A DNA stretch of 64,000 nucleotides, taken from positions 1 through 64,000 of the forward strand of contig CATONX010000002.1 in the NCBI GenBank assembly GCA_951801675.1, read 5' to 3'. The position numbers and the translations under genes were made by a program. Numbering within the stretch: the first letter of the stretch is position 1; every line of letters starts with the position of its first letter. Shown here piece after piece: positions 50,116 through 57,763 of the stretch. The notes below the pieces were generated by a model. The model saw only the letters and a program-made list of their open reading frames with translations, had not been told where the DNA came from and made no database searches. The DNA comes from an uncultured Eubacteriales bacterium (GTDB taxonomy: Bacteria > Bacillota > Clostridia > Oscillospirales > Acutalibacteraceae).

Positions 50116-50865
50116 TTATTCGATCCAGTTGTCGTTTCCTTCGTCCACATCCACGACGATGGCGTTACGCTTTTCCTTGGCGGCCCGCTTGCGGCGACCG
50201 ACAATGTTGACCTTGGTAAACAAAAGCAGCGCGCCGGAACTGACGATGCCGCACAGAATGACCGCCAGCACCGTGTAAAGCACGAAGCTGTTGTACCCTT
50301 CGGCAGAGGGGAAGAAGCTGTTAGCCATGAGTGCGAGCACCAGAGTGACCACGGCGGTAAAGAGACCCGCGATCATGCTCACGGTGTTGAGGTCCTTGCG
50401 CTTGATTTCCGACATGCGCTTTTTGTGCTCGATGTCGTTTACCTTCGCGTCAATCTCCGCGGCGGTCTTTTTGTCCGTCTGGCGGTTTAAGTCCTCAATA
50501 AAGGTGCGCAGGTCGTTGGAGTAACGTTTCTTTTCCTCCCAGGAGAAGTAGACGTTGGAGGTAATGTCCTTAATCAGCTCCTCGCAGAAGATCTGCACCG
50601 TGTACATGTCGCTCGCCTTGAGCAGGTACTTTCTGGCGGTGGACGCGATCATCGCTTCGATGATCTCCTGGTCGGGCAGGCCCTTGTCCGCAATGTACGG
50701 CTTCAAGGAGAGGAACACCTCGTCATTGGCCTGATAGATTTTCTTAATGTACTCATTGTTTCCCTTGCTGGAGATGGCGCACCGAGTCAGCAGCCAAACG
50801 ATAATGCCGCAGACCACGCCGCCTACAATCCCGATGACCCAGGGGTTTTGGATAAAATCCAACAT
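50116..50865 (-). CDS. Hypothetical membrane protein (N-terminal TM, coiled-coil, two C-terminal TMs)
   Basis: MLDFIQNPWVIGIVGGVVCGIIVWLLTRCAISSKGNNEYIKKIYQANDEVFLSLKPYIADKGLPDQEIIEAMIAS. Confidence 0.75.
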   Translation of the reverse strand: MLDFIQNPWVIGIVGGVVCGIIVWLLTRCAISSKGNNEYIKKIYQANDEVFLSLKPYIADKGLPDQEIIEAMIASTARKYLLKASDMYTVQIFCEELIKDITSNVYFSWEEKKRYSNDLRTFIEDLNRQTDKKTAAEIDAKVNDIEHKKRMSEIKRKDLNTVSMIAGLFTAVVTLVLALMANSFFPSAEGYNSFVLYTVLAVILCGIVSSGALLLFTKVNIVGRRKRAAKEKRNAIVVDVDEGNDNWIE

Positions 50866-50996
50866 GGTTTCACATCCTCACTTTTCACTCGATTTTGAAT
50901 GATGCTGTACAGATTTATATAGCATTAATTATACCGATTCCCTATAACTTTGTCAATTTCTGTCGTGTATTTTTCCATTTCTATCTGTGAACACTA

Positions 50997-51057
50997 TTTA
51001 CAACTGGGAAAATGAGGTTTTACACGATCTTTACACACGGTATATTCCCGCTATACA
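50997..51057 (+). promoter_or_regulatory. PHO-box-like array: TTTACA-type hexamers on an 11-bp phase upstream of pstS
   Basis: TTTACA at 50997, 51019, 51030; TATATT at 51041 (candidate -10); TATACA at 51052. Confidence 0.65.
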
Positions 51058-51105: not shown

Positions 51106-52002
51106 ATGAAAAAAATGCTTTCTCTTGCGACTATGGCAATCCTGGCCATCTCCGTTCTGGCCGGCTGCGGCGGCAGCGGCGATTCGAGCACCGGCTCGGG
51201 CACGGCTGGCGGCAGCTTTAACTCCGCTAAGGAAATCACCGTCATCTCCCGGGAAGCGTCCTCGGGCACCCGCGGCGCGTTCGACGAGCTCATGGGCCTG
51301 ATTGAAAAATCCGGCAACAGCGAGGTCAACAAGCTCTTCTCCGAAGCAGTCATCGCCAGCTCCACCGACGAAGTTCCCGCCAAGGTCGAGGTCGACAAGT
51401 ACGCCATCGGCTATACCTCCATCGGCGCGGTCAACGACAGCGTCAAGGCTCTGAAGGTGGACGGCGTGGAAGCCACCGAGGAAAACGTGAAAAACGGCAC
51501 CTATAAGGTATCCCGCCCCTTTATCATCGCCTCCAAAGGAGAAGTGAGCGGTATCGCGGCGGACTTCATCCAGTATGCCACCTCCACCCAGGGCCAGGAA
51601 ATCGTCAAGTCCCTGGGCTTCGTGACCATCGACGGCGCGAAGGAATACACCGCTCCCTCCACCGCCCTGTCCGGCAAGCTGACCCTCAGCGGCTCCACTT
51701 CCACCGAGAAGGTCATTGAGAAGCTCAGAGAAGAATACGTCAAGCTCAACCCCGGCGTGAGCATTGAGGTCACCTACAACGGGTCCGGCGCCGGCATCAA
51801 GGACGCCCAGGAAGGAAAATCCCAGCTGGCTCTCTCCTCCCGTGAGCTGAAAGACGAAGAAAAGGCCGCCCTGACTCCCACCGTTTTCGCCAACGACGGC
51901 ATCGCGGTCATCGTCAACAAAGACAACACCACCACCGAAATGACCACCGATCAGATCAAAAAGATCTTCACCGGCGAAACCCGCACCTGGGACAAGGTGT
52001 AA
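51106..52002 (+). CDS. pstS: Phosphate ABC transporter substrate-binding lipoprotein with permuted lobe order
   Basis: Lipobox LAGC; KEITVISREASSGTRGAFDELMG ... SVKALKVDGVEATEENVKNGTYKVSRPFIIA ... then SGKLTLSGSTSTEKVIEKLREEY..NGSGAGIKDAQEGKSQLALSSRELKDEE..FANDGIAVIVNKDN..IKKIFTGETRTWDKV. Confidence 0.9.
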   Translation: MKKMLSLATMAILAISVLAGCGGSGDSSTGSGTAGGSFNSAKEITVISREASSGTRGAFDELMGLIEKSGNSEVNKLFSEAVIASSTDEVPAKVEVDKYAIGYTSIGAVNDSVKALKVDGVEATEENVKNGTYKVSRPFIIASKGEVSGIAADFIQYATSTQGQEIVKSLGFVTIDGAKEYTAPSTALSGKLTLSGSTSTEKVIEKLREEYVKLNPGVSIEVTYNGSGAGIKDAQEGKSQLALSSRELKDEEKAALTPTVFANDGIAVIVNKDNTTTEMTTDQIKKIFTGETRTWDKV

Positions 52003-52103
52003 ATGACAAACGGTCAACAAACCTTCTGCAAAAATACTCCCAAAGGGACGGACACGCAAGGTGTCCGCCCCTTTGCGGCGGATAGAGACAGGGGATACCA
52101 GAT

Positions 52104-52967
52104 ATGAGAAAAAAGGCAATTCTAGAGAAAGGGTCAAAGCTCTTTTTCTTTCTGTGCGCGCTCTTTTCCATCGGTGCGGTGCTATTTATCTGTTACTTTA
52201 TCTTTGCAAACGCCATTCCCGCCATTCGGCAGGTGGGACTGTGGGAATTTCTTTCCGGCGCTTCCTGGCAGCCCAATAACGTCCCCCAGGAATTCGGCAT
52301 TTTCAATATGATCGTGGGCAGTGTCTACGTGACCGCCGGCGCCATTGTCATCGGTGTGCCCATCGGGCTTCTGGGCGCCATTTACCTGGCAAAATTCTGC
52401 CCGAAAAGGATCTACCCGGTGCTCAAGCAGGCGGTGTCCCTCTTGGCGGGCATCCCCTCCATCATCTACGGCTTTTTCGGCATGATGGTGATCGTCCCCT
52501 TTATTTTGGAGAATTTTGAGGGAAACGGCAACAGCGTGCTGGCGGCCTCCATTGTGCTGGGCATTATGATTCTGCCCACCATCATCTCCATCAGTGAAAC
52601 CTCTCTTCGTGCGGTTCCCAAAAGCTACGAGGAGGGGGCCTTGGCGCTTGGGGCCACCCGGGAAGAGTCTGCCTTCAAGGTCATCCTGCCCGCGGCCAAG
52701 TCCGGCGTGGTGACCTCCATTGTGCTTGGCATCGGCCGGGCCATCGGCGAAACCATGGCGGTGGTCATGGTGGCCGGAAACTCGAACATACTCCCTTCCT
52801 CCATTTTCAAATCGGTGCGTACCCTGACGGCCAACATCGTGCTGGAGATGAGCTATGCGTCGGGCCTGCACTACGACGCCCTCATCGCCACCGGCGCGGT
52901 GCTCTTTGTGTTTATCCTGCTTTTGAACATGGCGCTGGGGCTTTTGACCAGCAAAAAACGGGCGTAG
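52104..52967 (+). CDS. pstC: Phosphate ABC transporter permease PstC
   Basis: AIYLAKFCPKRIYPVLKQAVSLLAGIPSIIYGFFGMMVIVPFI; SYEEGALALGATREESAFKVILPAAKSGVVTSIVLGIGRAIGETMAV. Confidence 0.95.
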   Translation: MRKKAILEKGSKLFFFLCALFSIGAVLFICYFIFANAIPAIRQVGLWEFLSGASWQPNNVPQEFGIFNMIVGSVYVTAGAIVIGVPIGLLGAIYLAKFCPKRIYPVLKQAVSLLAGIPSIIYGFFGMMVIVPFILENFEGNGNSVLAASIVLGIMILPTIISISETSLRAVPKSYEEGALALGATREESAFKVILPAAKSGVVTSIVLGIGRAIGETMAVVMVAGNSNILPSSIFKSVRTLTANIVLEMSYASGLHYDALIATGAVLFVFILLLNMALGLLTSKKRA

Positions 52968-52980
52968 GGGGGACGATTGT

Positions 52981-53865
52981 ATGAAATTGGCCATCAAGCA
53001 TTTGAAAGATCAGCTGCGTATCTACCGCAGAAAGCCCCTTTCGCTGGTGCTTTTCCTGCTTTTGAACCTGGCCATGCTGCTGACCATCGCGTCGCTGATC
53101 TTCGTTATCGGCTATATCTTTGTAAACGGTGTTTCCCATCTTACGCCGGAACTGGTGTTCGGAAAATACTCGTCGGACAATCCGTCCATGTCCTTCGCCA
53201 TCGTCACCACCGTCATCCTGGTCATCGTGGCGCTGCTGCTGGCGGCTCCTTTGAGCATTTTCTGCGCCATTTACCTGACCGAGTACGCCAAGCGGGGCAA
53301 TAAGATCGTCAAGGTCATACGTTTGGCTACCGAGACGTTGGCGGGTATCCCCTCCATCGTTTACGGCCTGTTCGGCTCCATCTTTTTCGGAACGGTACTG
53401 GGCTGGGGCTATTCCATCCTCACGGGCGCTTGTACCGTGGCCATCATGGTGCTGCCGGTCATCATCCGCTCCACCGAGGAGTCCATCCTTTCAGTGCCGG
53501 ACAGTTACCGGGAAGGCAGCTACGGACTGGGCGCCTCCAAGCTGCGCACCGTTTTTAAAATCGTGCTGCCCAGCGCCATGCCGGGCATTCTTTCCGCCGT
53601 CATTTTGAGCGTGGGACGCATCGTGGGCGAGACGGCGGCCCTCATCTTTACCTTGGGATCGGTGGCCAAAATGCCGGGGAGCCTCTTAGACTCCAGCCGT
53701 ACCCTGGCGGTACACATGTATATTTCCACCCGGGACGGCGGCATGGCCGGGCGCAACACCGCCTTTGCCACCGGTGTGATCCTAGTGAGCATTGTGCTGG
53801 TCATCAACCTGCTCGCGTCCTATCTTGCCAAGAAAGTAAGCGGAGGAAAGACAGATGGAGAGTAA
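52981..53865 (+). CDS. pstA: Phosphate ABC transporter permease PstA
   Basis: [84 protein letters not shown]. Confidence 0.95.
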
Positions 53866-54607
53866 AATCAGCATCCGCAATATGGATTTGTATTACGGGG
53901 ACTTCCAGGCATTAAAAAACGTCAACCTGGAAATCCTGCCCAATGAGATCACCGCCTTTATCGGCCCGTCCGGCTGCGGCAAGTCCACGCTGCTCAAGTC
54001 GTTAAACCGTATGAACGACCTGGTGGAGGGCTGCAAAATCACCGGGCAGATCACTTTGGACGGGGAGGACATTTACGGGAACATGGACGTGTCTCTCTTG
54101 CGCAAGCGGGTGGGCATGGTGTTTCAAAAGCCCAATCCCTTTCCCATGAGCGTCTATGACAATATCGCCTTCGGCCCGCGCACCCACGGCATCAAAAAGC
54201 ACCACGTGCTCGATGAGATCGTCGAAGAATCCCTGCGCAACGCCGCCATCTGGGACGAGGTGAAGGACCGGCTCAAAAAGCCCGCCCTGGCTTTGTCGGG
54301 CGGCCAGCAGCAGCGCCTTTGCATCGCCAGAGCCCTGGCCGTGCAGCCCGAAGTGCTCCTGATGGACGAACCCACCAGTGCGCTCGACCCCATCTCTACC
54401 ACCAAAATCGAGGACCTGGCGACGGTTCTCAAGGAGAAGTATACCATCGTCATTGTGACACATAATATGCAGCAGGCAACCCGGATTTCCGACAAGACGG
54501 CTTTCTTCCTGCATGGGGAAATCGTCGAGTCCGGGGATACCATTTCCCTGTTCTCCCATCCCAAGGAGAAGAAAACCGAGGATTACATCACCGGCCGGTT
54601 CGGTTAA
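53855..54607 (+). CDS. pstB: Phosphate ABC transporter ATP-binding protein PstB
   Basis: [65 protein letters not shown]. Confidence 0.97.
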
Positions 54608-54630: not shown

Positions 54631-55287
54631 TTGAGAAATAAATTCGAGCAGGAATTGGACGAATTAAACCGCGATCTGGTCAAAATGGGCAGCCTGATTG
54701 AAACGGCCATTTCCAAGGCCATGACGGCGCTCAAGGAAAAAAACATTGATCTTGCCAAAGAGGTCATAAGCAGCGACAATGTGGTGGATGAGCTGGAAAG
54801 CGCCATCGAGCGAAAGTCGTTGCGCATCCTCTTGTCCGAGCAGCCGGTGGCCAGAGACCTGCGTTCCATCTCCACGGCGCTCAAGATGATCACCGACATG
54901 GAGCGCATCTGCGACCAGGCAGCGGACATTGCCGAGATCATCGTGCAGTTTGAAAAGCGGGAATATGAGGATATCCCGGCACAAATTTCGCAAATGGCGC
55001 AAAAATGTGTTACAATGGTCTCAAAATGCATCGACGCGTTCATCACCTCCGACCTTAATCTGGCAAACGCTGTCATCGCGTCGGACGACGAGGTGGACGC
55101 CTTGTTCGATTCCTTCAAGGAGCGGCTCATTTCCCTGATCCAGCAGGACGCCAGAAAGGGCGAAGAGGCGGTGGATCTCTTAATGATCGCCAAGTATCTC
55201 GAGCGCATCGGCGACCATGCCACCAACATCGCCGAATGGGTGGTCTTCAACATTACGGGCAAGCACAAGGGCGCGCGCATCCTATGA
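54631..55287 (+). CDS. phoU: Phosphate signalling protein PhoU
   Basis: FEQELDELNRDLVKMGSLIETAISKAMTALKEKN..., ARDLRSISTALKMITDMERICDQAADIAE; TTG start. Confidence 0.95.
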   Translation: MRNKFEQELDELNRDLVKMGSLIETAISKAMTALKEKNIDLAKEVISSDNVVDELESAIERKSLRILLSEQPVARDLRSISTALKMITDMERICDQAADIAEIIVQFEKREYEDIPAQISQMAQKCVTMVSKCIDAFITSDLNLANAVIASDDEVDALFDSFKERLISLIQQDARKGEEAVDLLMIAKYLERIGDHATNIAEWVVFNITGKHKGARIL

Positions 55288-55323: not shown

Positions 55324-56040
55324 TTGGCAACGGCAATCTGGGTGGTGGAGGACGACGAGAACATCGCCGAGCTCATTAAAACGGCGCTTTTGTCCGCCAG
55401 CTACGAGGCGCGCGTGTTTGACTCCGGCGCGGCCCTCTTCGAGCGGGGGGATACGCAGGTGCCGGATCTGATTCTGCTGGACATTATGCTGCCCGGCATG
55501 AGTGGGTACGACATCCTCAAAAGGCTGCGTGCCTCCAAGGACATGCCCGATGTCCCGGTCATCTTCCTCACCGCCAAGGGCACCGAGTTCGACAAGGCCA
55601 TGGGGCTGGAGCTGGGGGCGGACGACTATATTCCAAAGCCCTTCGGCGTGCTCGAGCTGCTCGCGCGCATCAAGGCGGTGCTGCGCCGGTACACGAAGGG
55701 CCGGTCGGTATCGGCCGGGCCAAGGGAAAGCGGCGGATGCCGGTATAAGGACCTGGAGATCGACGCGGCAAGCCGGGAAATCCGCAAGGACGGGGTCCCG
55801 GTTAAGTTCACGTTCAAGGAATTTGAGCTATTCTTGTATATGTATCAAAACCGCGGGGTGGTTTTGAGCCGGGACAACCTGCTTGAGAAGGTGTGGGGCT
55901 ACGAATACGCGGGGGACACCACCCGCACGGTGGATATGCACATCAAGTCCATCCGCCAGAAACTCTCGGACAGCCCGGACGCGCCCAGATACATAGAGAC
56001 CATCCGCGGCTACGGATACAAGTTTTTAAAGGAATCGTAA
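55324..56040 (+). CDS. PhoB/PhoP-type response regulator
   Basis: IWVVEDDENIAELIKTALLSASYEARVFD..LILLDIMLPGMSGYDIL; C-terminal winged-helix EFELFLYMYQNRGVVLSRDNLLEKVWGYEYAGDTRTVD-type. Confidence 0.93.
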   Translation: MATAIWVVEDDENIAELIKTALLSASYEARVFDSGAALFERGDTQVPDLILLDIMLPGMSGYDILKRLRASKDMPDVPVIFLTAKGTEFDKAMGLELGADDYIPKPFGVLELLARIKAVLRRYTKGRSVSAGPRESGGCRYKDLEIDAASREIRKDGVPVKFTFKEFELFLYMYQNRGVVLSRDNLLEKVWGYEYAGDTTRTVDMHIKSIRQKLSDSPDAPRYIETIRGYGYKFLKES

Positions 56041-56041
56041 G

Positions 56042-57763
56042 ATGAAGAAACGGCTGCGTGTAATTCTGACTGCGCTCACCCTGCTCGCCATGGTGTGCGT
56101 ACTGGCCATCTGCTTTGTGTGGATGTCCCAGTTTCGCGTGCAGGACCTGCGAAGGGACCTTTCCAATGTGATGAATACCGCCTCCTATCTGACAAACGTG
56201 GGAGACACCAGCGATTACGACGCCTACGCCAAGCGCCTGGCCCGGGACCTGCACGGGGACATCCGCGTGACCATTGTGGCAGCGGACGGGAAGGTGCTGG
56301 GAGACTCGTATGCGGACTATTCGGCCATGGCCAATCACCTGGACCGGCCCGAGGTGACAAAGGCCATACGCGACGGGTACGGAGAAGACGTGCGCAAAAG
56401 CGAGACCACCGGGGAGGACAATTTCTACGCCGCCATGATTTTGACCGACGGGATCTATATCCGGGTATCGGCACCGGTTGCGGTGGCCTATAGCTTTATC
56501 CTCCAGGTGCTCCCGCCCGTGCTCCTTTTGTGCGTGGCGGTCTTTCTGATTATCCTCTTGCTTTCTCACCGCGTATCCGCCCGGTTTACCAGGCCCTTTG
56601 AGGAGCTTTCCGGGGCGGTGGAAGGCCTCATCATTGACGGCAAGCCCGGTGAAATCTCCGCGCCGCCCTATGACGAGCTGGTTCCCATTGTGCGAAACAT
56701 TCGGGATTTAAGCGGCCGGCTGCAAATGTACATTGCGGAAATCAAGCAGAAATCCGCGGAAATTGAGGACATCATTTCCGCTACCGACGACGGGGTGGTG
56801 GTGCTCGACGGGTCGATGCACATCATCACCATCAACGAGCGGGCCAAGGAGCTGTTCGGCGGCGCCGGTGATGCGAAAAGCTTTGAAATGGTCTGCCGGG
56901 ACATGGCGCTTCTGGAAAAAATCAAAAAGACCTTCCGCAGCGGAAAGGAATCCCACGCGGAGCTGGATATGCGCAACAAAAACGGCCGCGTTTACCGCTG
57001 CATCGTCAGCCCTGCCAAAAGCAAGGAAGGGCTGACTACAGGGGCTGTCCTCTTTTTGTCCGACGTGACCGAAATCATCCGCCTCGAGCGAGTGCGCTCC
57101 GACTTTGCCGCCAACGTTTCCCATGAGCTGAAAACCCCTTTGACCGCTATCAAGGGCTTTTCCGAGCTTATAGACGCGGGGCTTGTGACCGATGAGGAGA
57201 AAAAGCGGGAATACATCCGCCTGATTATGAAGGAAAGCGACCGGCTGATGGGGCTCATCAACGACATTCTCAAGCTGGCCGAGCTGGAAAACGCCACCGA
57301 AGAGCCTCAGCGGCTGGAAACCGTGTCTCTGGGGAACATTGTAAGAGAGGTGCAGACGGTCCTGGAAGGAAAGGCGAAGGAGCGGCAGGTGACGCTGTCG
57401 GCCCGTGGAGACGGCTTCATCCGTGCCGACCAGGAGCGTATTCGGGAAATGGTGATCAACCTGGTGGACAACGCCGTCAAATACAACCGCCCCGGCGGGC
57501 GGGTGGACGTATCGGTGGAGCAAACCAAAGACAGCGTGATCCTGACGGTGGCGGACACCGGCATCGGCATCTCTCCCGAGCATCAGGAACGGGTATTCGA
57601 GCGGTTCTACCGGGTGGACAAGGGGCGCAGCCGCAAGTCGGGCGGAACGGGTTTAGGACTCTCCATCGTCCGGCACACCGCCGAGCATTACGGCGGCGTG
57701 GTTGCATTGGAAAGCGAGGAGCAGGTGGGAACCCGGATCACCGTCACCTTCCCTCAGGCCTGA
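56042..57763 (+). CDS. PhoR-type sensor histidine kinase
   Basis: HAMP-like and PAS regions; FAANVSHELKTPLTAIKGFSELI; NLVDNAVKYNRPGG; GTGLGLSIVRHTAEHYGG. Confidence 0.93.
   Translation: MKKRLRVILTALTLLAMVCVLAICFVWMSQFRVQDLRRDLSNVMNTASYLTNVGDTSDYDAYAKRLARDLHGDIRVTIVAADGKVLGDSYADYSAMANHLDRPEVTKAIRDGYGEDVRKSETTGEDNFYAAMILTDGIYIRVSAPVAVAYSFILQVLPPVLLLCVAVFLIILLLSHRVSARFTRPFEELSGAVEGLIIDGKPGEISAPPYDELVPIVRNIRDLSGRLQMYIAEIKQKSAEIEDIISATDDGVVVLDGSMHIITINERAKELFGGAGDAKSFEMVCRDMALLEKIKKTFRSGKESHAELDMRNKNGRVYRCIVSPAKSKEGLTTGAVLFLSDVTEIIRLERVRSDFAANVSHELKTPLTAIKGFSELIDAGLVTDEEKKREYIRLIMKESDRLMGLINDILKLAELENATEEPQRLETVSLGNIVREVQTVLEGKAKERQVTLSARGDGFIRADQERIREMVINLVDNAVKYNRPGGRVDVSVEQTKDSVILTVADTGIGISPEHQERVFERFYRVDKGRSRKSGGTGLGLSIVRHTAEHYGGVVALESEEQVGTRITVTFPQA

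Follow-up and report, generated by a model that had tools for sequence, protein, structure and literature searches.

The Pst phosphate transporters of Streptococcus pneumoniae offer the closest described parallel to the system considered here. The operon pst2, which contains the gene for PstS 2 (SP_2084, PDB 4H1X), is expressed and has no recognised Pho box; its transporter, Pst2, is functional and tied to control by PhoU2, with Pst1 having the primary role at low phosphate (Pi) (PMC4913102). A second parallel comes from Treponema pallidum, whose glucose-binding lipoprotein TpMglB-2 (Tp0684) is naturally permuted and still binds its ligand and closes, with homologues mainly in treponemes and Gram-positives (PMC4990184). 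Further, circular permutations have been described among folds of the glycine betaine-, molybdate- and CysB-type (CPSARST, PMC2395249).

Here, we analyze a pstS gene from a 64-kb stretch of bacterial DNA (hereafter, the window), whose product has its two halves exchanged: it runs A–linker–B, where A is the canonical C-terminal half and B the canonical N-terminal half, as against B–A in canonical PstS. PstS 2 of S. pneumoniae shares this order and the fold, and it too is the binding protein of a pst operon; the permuted topology has been in the PDB since 2012 and is not new as such. However, S. pneumoniae also has a canonical-order PstS1 (PDB 4EXL), whereas the window protein is the sole copy in its genome, and the window gene has a Pho box where none is recognised for pst2. 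The canonical short clostridial PstS proteins (TIGR02136/PF12849; 4GD5, 4Q8R) share homologous halves, the phosphate-site motifs and the type of operon, but their halves stand in the opposite order and their sequential structural match to the window protein is partial. TpMglB-2 is likewise a tethered, naturally permuted substrate-binding lipoprotein of an ABC transporter, but differs in its Type I sugar-binding fold, cut site and ligand, while the glycine betaine-binding permutants have binding-protein-like folds with a very distant sequence and another ligand. Our search of the open-access PMC literature (subscription journals, bioRxiv and permutation databases lay outside it) found neither a permuted PstS nor a paper naming the 4H1X structure or calling the topology of PstS a permutation. 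PstS is a textbook binding protein, and one lineage has it permuted as the sole copy.

Exchanged halves in the PstS chain

The gene (51106–52002, forward strand, as for all window features below unless stated otherwise) begins with ATG and codes for 298 aa in a frame that is open throughout. The N-terminus has the makeup of a bacterial lipoprotein, namely a signal peptide and the lipobox LAGC (51106–51168; residues 18–21, with Cys21), as read from the sequence. Segment HMMs place A at 51232–51630 (residues ~43–175, ITVISREASSGTR...GFV), with the phosphate-loop motif SREASSGTR, and B at 51670–51999 (residues ~189–298, LTLSGSTS...IFTGETRTWDKV up to the stop), with the motifs GSTS, NGSGAGIK, SREL, DGIAVIVN and IFTGETRTW. 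Between them, a new linker of ~13 residues, TIDGAKEYTAPST (51631–51669), joins the old C- and N-termini and is modelled with a pLDDT of 93–97. The residues that an earlier note on this DNA had quoted for 51106–52002 are all found in place in the ORF translation, and it had read the linker, 'DGAKEYTAPSTALS', correctly.

Pfam and NCBIfam put the protein in the PstS group (PF12849, TIGR02136), with Pfam by itself being uninformative on the order of the halves. In a whole-genome scan with the 295-position profile TIGR02136, the N-terminal half (nt 51226–51627) matched positions 161–294 and the C-terminal half (nt 51649–52011) positions 32–161, i.e., both halves are homologous to PstS. In its natural order, the protein scores 174.7 bits in two crossed pieces, and no single collinear match reaches the curated cut-off of 206.6 bits; hence, we file it not as a canonical PstS but as a permuted homologue. 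More generally, as the curated profiles score permuted pstS genes below the cut-off, annotation may misname or miss them. When the sequence is duplicated head to tail, as the earlier note had suggested, the match becomes one stretch covering 32–294 of the 295 positions with a total of 347.7 bits. Against solved structures, the canonical PstS proteins 4gd5, 4q8r and 1twy each match in two crossed stretches. As the E-values of each half with PstS chains of known structure run from 1e-13 to 1e-20, this crossed correspondence is far above chance. The chain of 4h1x aligns as a single stretch that covers residues 41–298 with 43% identity, and its profile match is collinear (325 bits). The halves are thus reversed and each complete, with a single cut between them, as in a circular permutant.

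The AlphaFold2 model (pLDDT 89.4, pTM 0.80; underlying alignment of only 30 sequences), in which the signal peptide is of low confidence and disordered, points the same way. Foldseek matched it to 4h1x over its full length (E 7.2e-34, TM 0.94, 1.7 Å, 257 columns) and to the canonical 1twy over just 90–140 columns; OpuAC was among the longest matches after 4H1X, at TM 0.45–0.50. A control model of a canonical clostridial PstS, made by the same procedure, matched ~40 canonical PstS chains over their full length, including E. coli PstSCAB, with 4h1x absent from its top 50 matches. As modelled, then, the window protein has the PstS fold with a non-sequential correspondence to the canonical chain. 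The earlier note had claimed a circular permutation and had asked for a predicted structure; the crossed matches, the collinear duplicate and the predicted fold agree on that claim.

The pst locus and its promoter

The gene is followed by those for the permeases PstC (52104–52967) and PstA (52981–53865; both PF00528), the ATPase PstB (53855–54607; PF00005), PhoU (54631–55287; two PF01895 repeats), a PhoB/PhoP-type response regulator (55324–56040; PF00072, PF00486) and a PhoR-type histidine kinase (56042–57763; PF00512, PF02518, PAS). The intact pstCAB–phoU genes reported earlier are thus present, as is typical of a PstS-encoding locus, and phoB/phoR-type genes come after them. Across the loci compared, pstC lies directly 3' of pstS in 150 of 168 permuted cases versus 47 of 54 canonical ones.

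Upstream, a predicted site for a PhoB/PnpR-type regulator, the Pho box TTTACACGATCTTTACA (51019–51035), overlaps a −35/−10 pair, in which the −10-like TATATT (51041–51046; consensus match only) lies 16 nt past TTTACA in the −35 region. The Pho-box pattern has this single match in the window, with 0 mismatches, as against 0 in shuffles, and the site is one base off the pneumococcal Pho box TTTACACAATCTTTACA (PMC4913102). Pho-box-like sites (≤3 mismatches) occur upstream of 51 of 172 permuted pstS genes and 9 of 51 canonical ones (shuffled controls 0). Judged by its promoter sequence, the window gene would belong to the Pho regulon, and the Pho box together with the adjacent two-component genes implies induction on Pi starvation. 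The gap between pstS and pstC holds a strong hairpin (52041–52075) without a T-run on the forward strand (−36.7 kcal/mol, z −4.5 for the fold of the gap), which possibly sets the mRNA ratio in favor of pstS over pstCAB. On the minus strand, a perfect sigma-70 consensus, TTGACA-17-TATAAT (50928–50956), precedes a divergent gene (50116–50865) coding for a 249-aa protein with no Pfam match.

Distribution and descent of permuted PstS

We surveyed genomes with the window PstS as the query, counting full-length collinear matches as permuted and two-piece matches as canonical. Permuted versions were found in approximately 29 of the 150 genomes of the source family (canonical two-piece matches in about 40), 56 of the 291 genomes of the class (roughly a fifth) and 9 of 250 in a wider phylum sample, all of these being approximate counts with totals that include genomes without any match. 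Segment HMMs sort each complete gene unambiguously as A–B or B–A, and the best 80 named relatives are A–B without exception (80/80). Although many of them come from metagenome bins, the labels of which may be in error, these relatives span Clostridia, Tissierellia, Streptococcus hillyeri, S. mitis and Granulicatella, and include [Ruminococcus] torques, Intestinimonas and Chitinispirillia (Fibrobacterota), the last being the closest to the window protein among them (55–56%). Permuted PstS is thus widespread yet patchy. The suspicion voiced earlier, that related Clostridia share the arrangement, holds: the lobe-order survey finds it in that class, though patchily, and it extends to Streptococcus, Granulicatella and Fibrobacterota.

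In a tree of PstS with all rows placed in a common order (halves concatenated; long-branch rows and the divergent L084 excluded), permuted and canonical versions fall on opposite sides of one branch with support of 96/92, and a single permuted branch recurs in 94% of the bootstrap trees for one set and in 98% for another. This is good, though not absolute, support for a single origin of the main permuted clade. The window PstS and that of Chitinispirillia form the deepest branch on the permuted side; by this position, and by its full-length collinear homology to 4H1X, the window protein is a member of the PstS2-type clade. The PstC proteins of permuted operons, including those of the window, Fibrobacterota and Streptococcus, likewise form one clade (100/99). 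As the permuted PstS and its PstC each form a clade, one permutation in one operon lineage, spread together with the permease, is indicated: most likely, the main clade goes back to a single event in an ancestral pst operon of Bacillota, and the permuted gene was then passed on with PstC by both inheritance and transfer. Among the streptococcal versions, L192 clusters not with 4H1X but with class relatives from family f21, which points to streptococci having received it in a separate transfer. Pho-box-like sites are present at L192 and L203 (from S. hillyeri and S. mitis).

A second, divergent family of permuted PstS proteins (L084, L213–L225), from another order of the same class, has a 28-residue linker and its own divergent PstC lineage, and sits apart from the main permuted clade in both the PstS and PstC trees. 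For one origin including this family, the AU test gave p = 0.07 and 0.10 with PstS and 0.11 with PstC, and so neither establishes nor rejects it. We give an even chance to two or more permutations of PstS at one and the same loop, with the window/4H1X clade and the L084 family each going back to an event of its own. The second family also includes L224 (2699–5248, minus strand, G691 contig 82), a 990-aa frame with three A–B units in the order A–B–A–B–A–B, which are 91–93% identical to one another, ahead of pstC, pstA and pstB. Unless it is an assembly artefact, its sequence would specify a multi-domain phosphate-binding lipoprotein.

The permuted gene probably came about by tandem duplication, after which the outer halves were lost. 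Two tandem pstS genes precede pstC in L065, L073, L125 (copies ~1.4 kb apart) and L225, which are permuted, and in L208, which is canonical. A fused B–A–B–A intermediate was sought among the PstS loci and none was found: the 510-aa frame of L045 proved to be merely an upstream extension of the frame, and L208 (G523) two separate canonical genes. These tandem genes and the triple-unit L224 offer material to test the origin of natural permutations; if PstS was indeed permuted twice, the tandem-repeat versions would display, in present-day genes, a way in which permutations can arise.

Alternative readings and proposed mode of action

The phosphate site of PstS is built by loops from both halves. 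The residues invariant in 30 permuted relatives (R49, S53, G54, T55, R56, G196, S197, S227, R246 and D264) include the phosphate-site loops. With SRExxSGTR coming from A, and GSTS, GSGAG and SRE from B, the site uses both segments; accordingly, fold and site can be kept under the exchange. We consider it highly probable that the window gene codes for a working Pst phosphate-binding lipoprotein, a natural circular permutant that has retained the PstS fold and site.

Three other readings were weighed against this. The source genome (2.36 Mb, 99.97% complete) is a draft in 48 contigs, and the permuted order could in principle be that of a rearranged pseudogene or an assembly error, while a canonical pstS at another locus supplies the working protein, as the earlier note had cautioned. 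However, the frame has no stops, and the whole-genome profile scan found the window gene to be the sole PstS-like place, with no second, canonical PstS across this nearly complete sequence. A congener has an intact pstS of the same order with 90% identity over the full length, and the A–B order recurs in complete genomes of a single contig as well as in each of the best 80 named relatives. These independent genomes refute such an origin, to which we give practically no weight; the permuted PstS is real and probably working. A chimera, with halves of different PstS genes fused by recombination, is a more serious yet still unlikely alternative. The halves could in principle have separate histories, and tandem pstS genes do exist (L065, L073, L125, L208), but the concatenated halves yield a supported permuted clade, and a tandem duplication of near-identical copies would in effect be the same event as a single-gene permutation.

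The remaining alternative concerns the ligand: the protein might bind another oxyanion or an organophosphate, or act mainly as a Pi sensor. In its favor, the B-segment motif varies among permuted relatives (NGSGAG in the window protein, SDSSxG in most others), and in S. pneumoniae it is Pst1 that is primary at low Pi, with Pst2 linked to PhoU2 regulation (PMC4913102). Set against this are the complete pstSCAB–phoU–phoBR locus with its Pho box, the absence of any other PstS from the genome and the conserved SGTR and GSTS motifs, which together make such a role very unlikely. The window protein may nevertheless differ in phosphate affinity from its SDSSxG relatives.

On the preferred reading, a working permuted phosphate-binding protein, Pi binding, docking on PstCA and regulation are inferred. 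The PstS chain would have been cut in the loop that links '...IFTGEITxW' to 'ITVISREAGSGTR' and the old termini joined via the short linker, with the bilobed fold and the phosphate site kept and the chain order alone changed. The permuted protein would bind Pi in its cleft and close, whereupon the closed form would dock on the permease pair PstCA and let go of Pi, which is then imported at the expense of ATP. We take the cut to lie within the second lobe, so that the lipid anchor would leave from this lobe and not from the first; the permuted and canonical clades thus permit tests of the effect of an anchor on the other lobe on docking and uptake. A longer lipid tether as compensation is not seen in the main permuted clade, where the median distance from the Cys to the domain is 20 aa versus 22 aa in canonical versions; the L084 family has a longer one, with a median of 51 aa.
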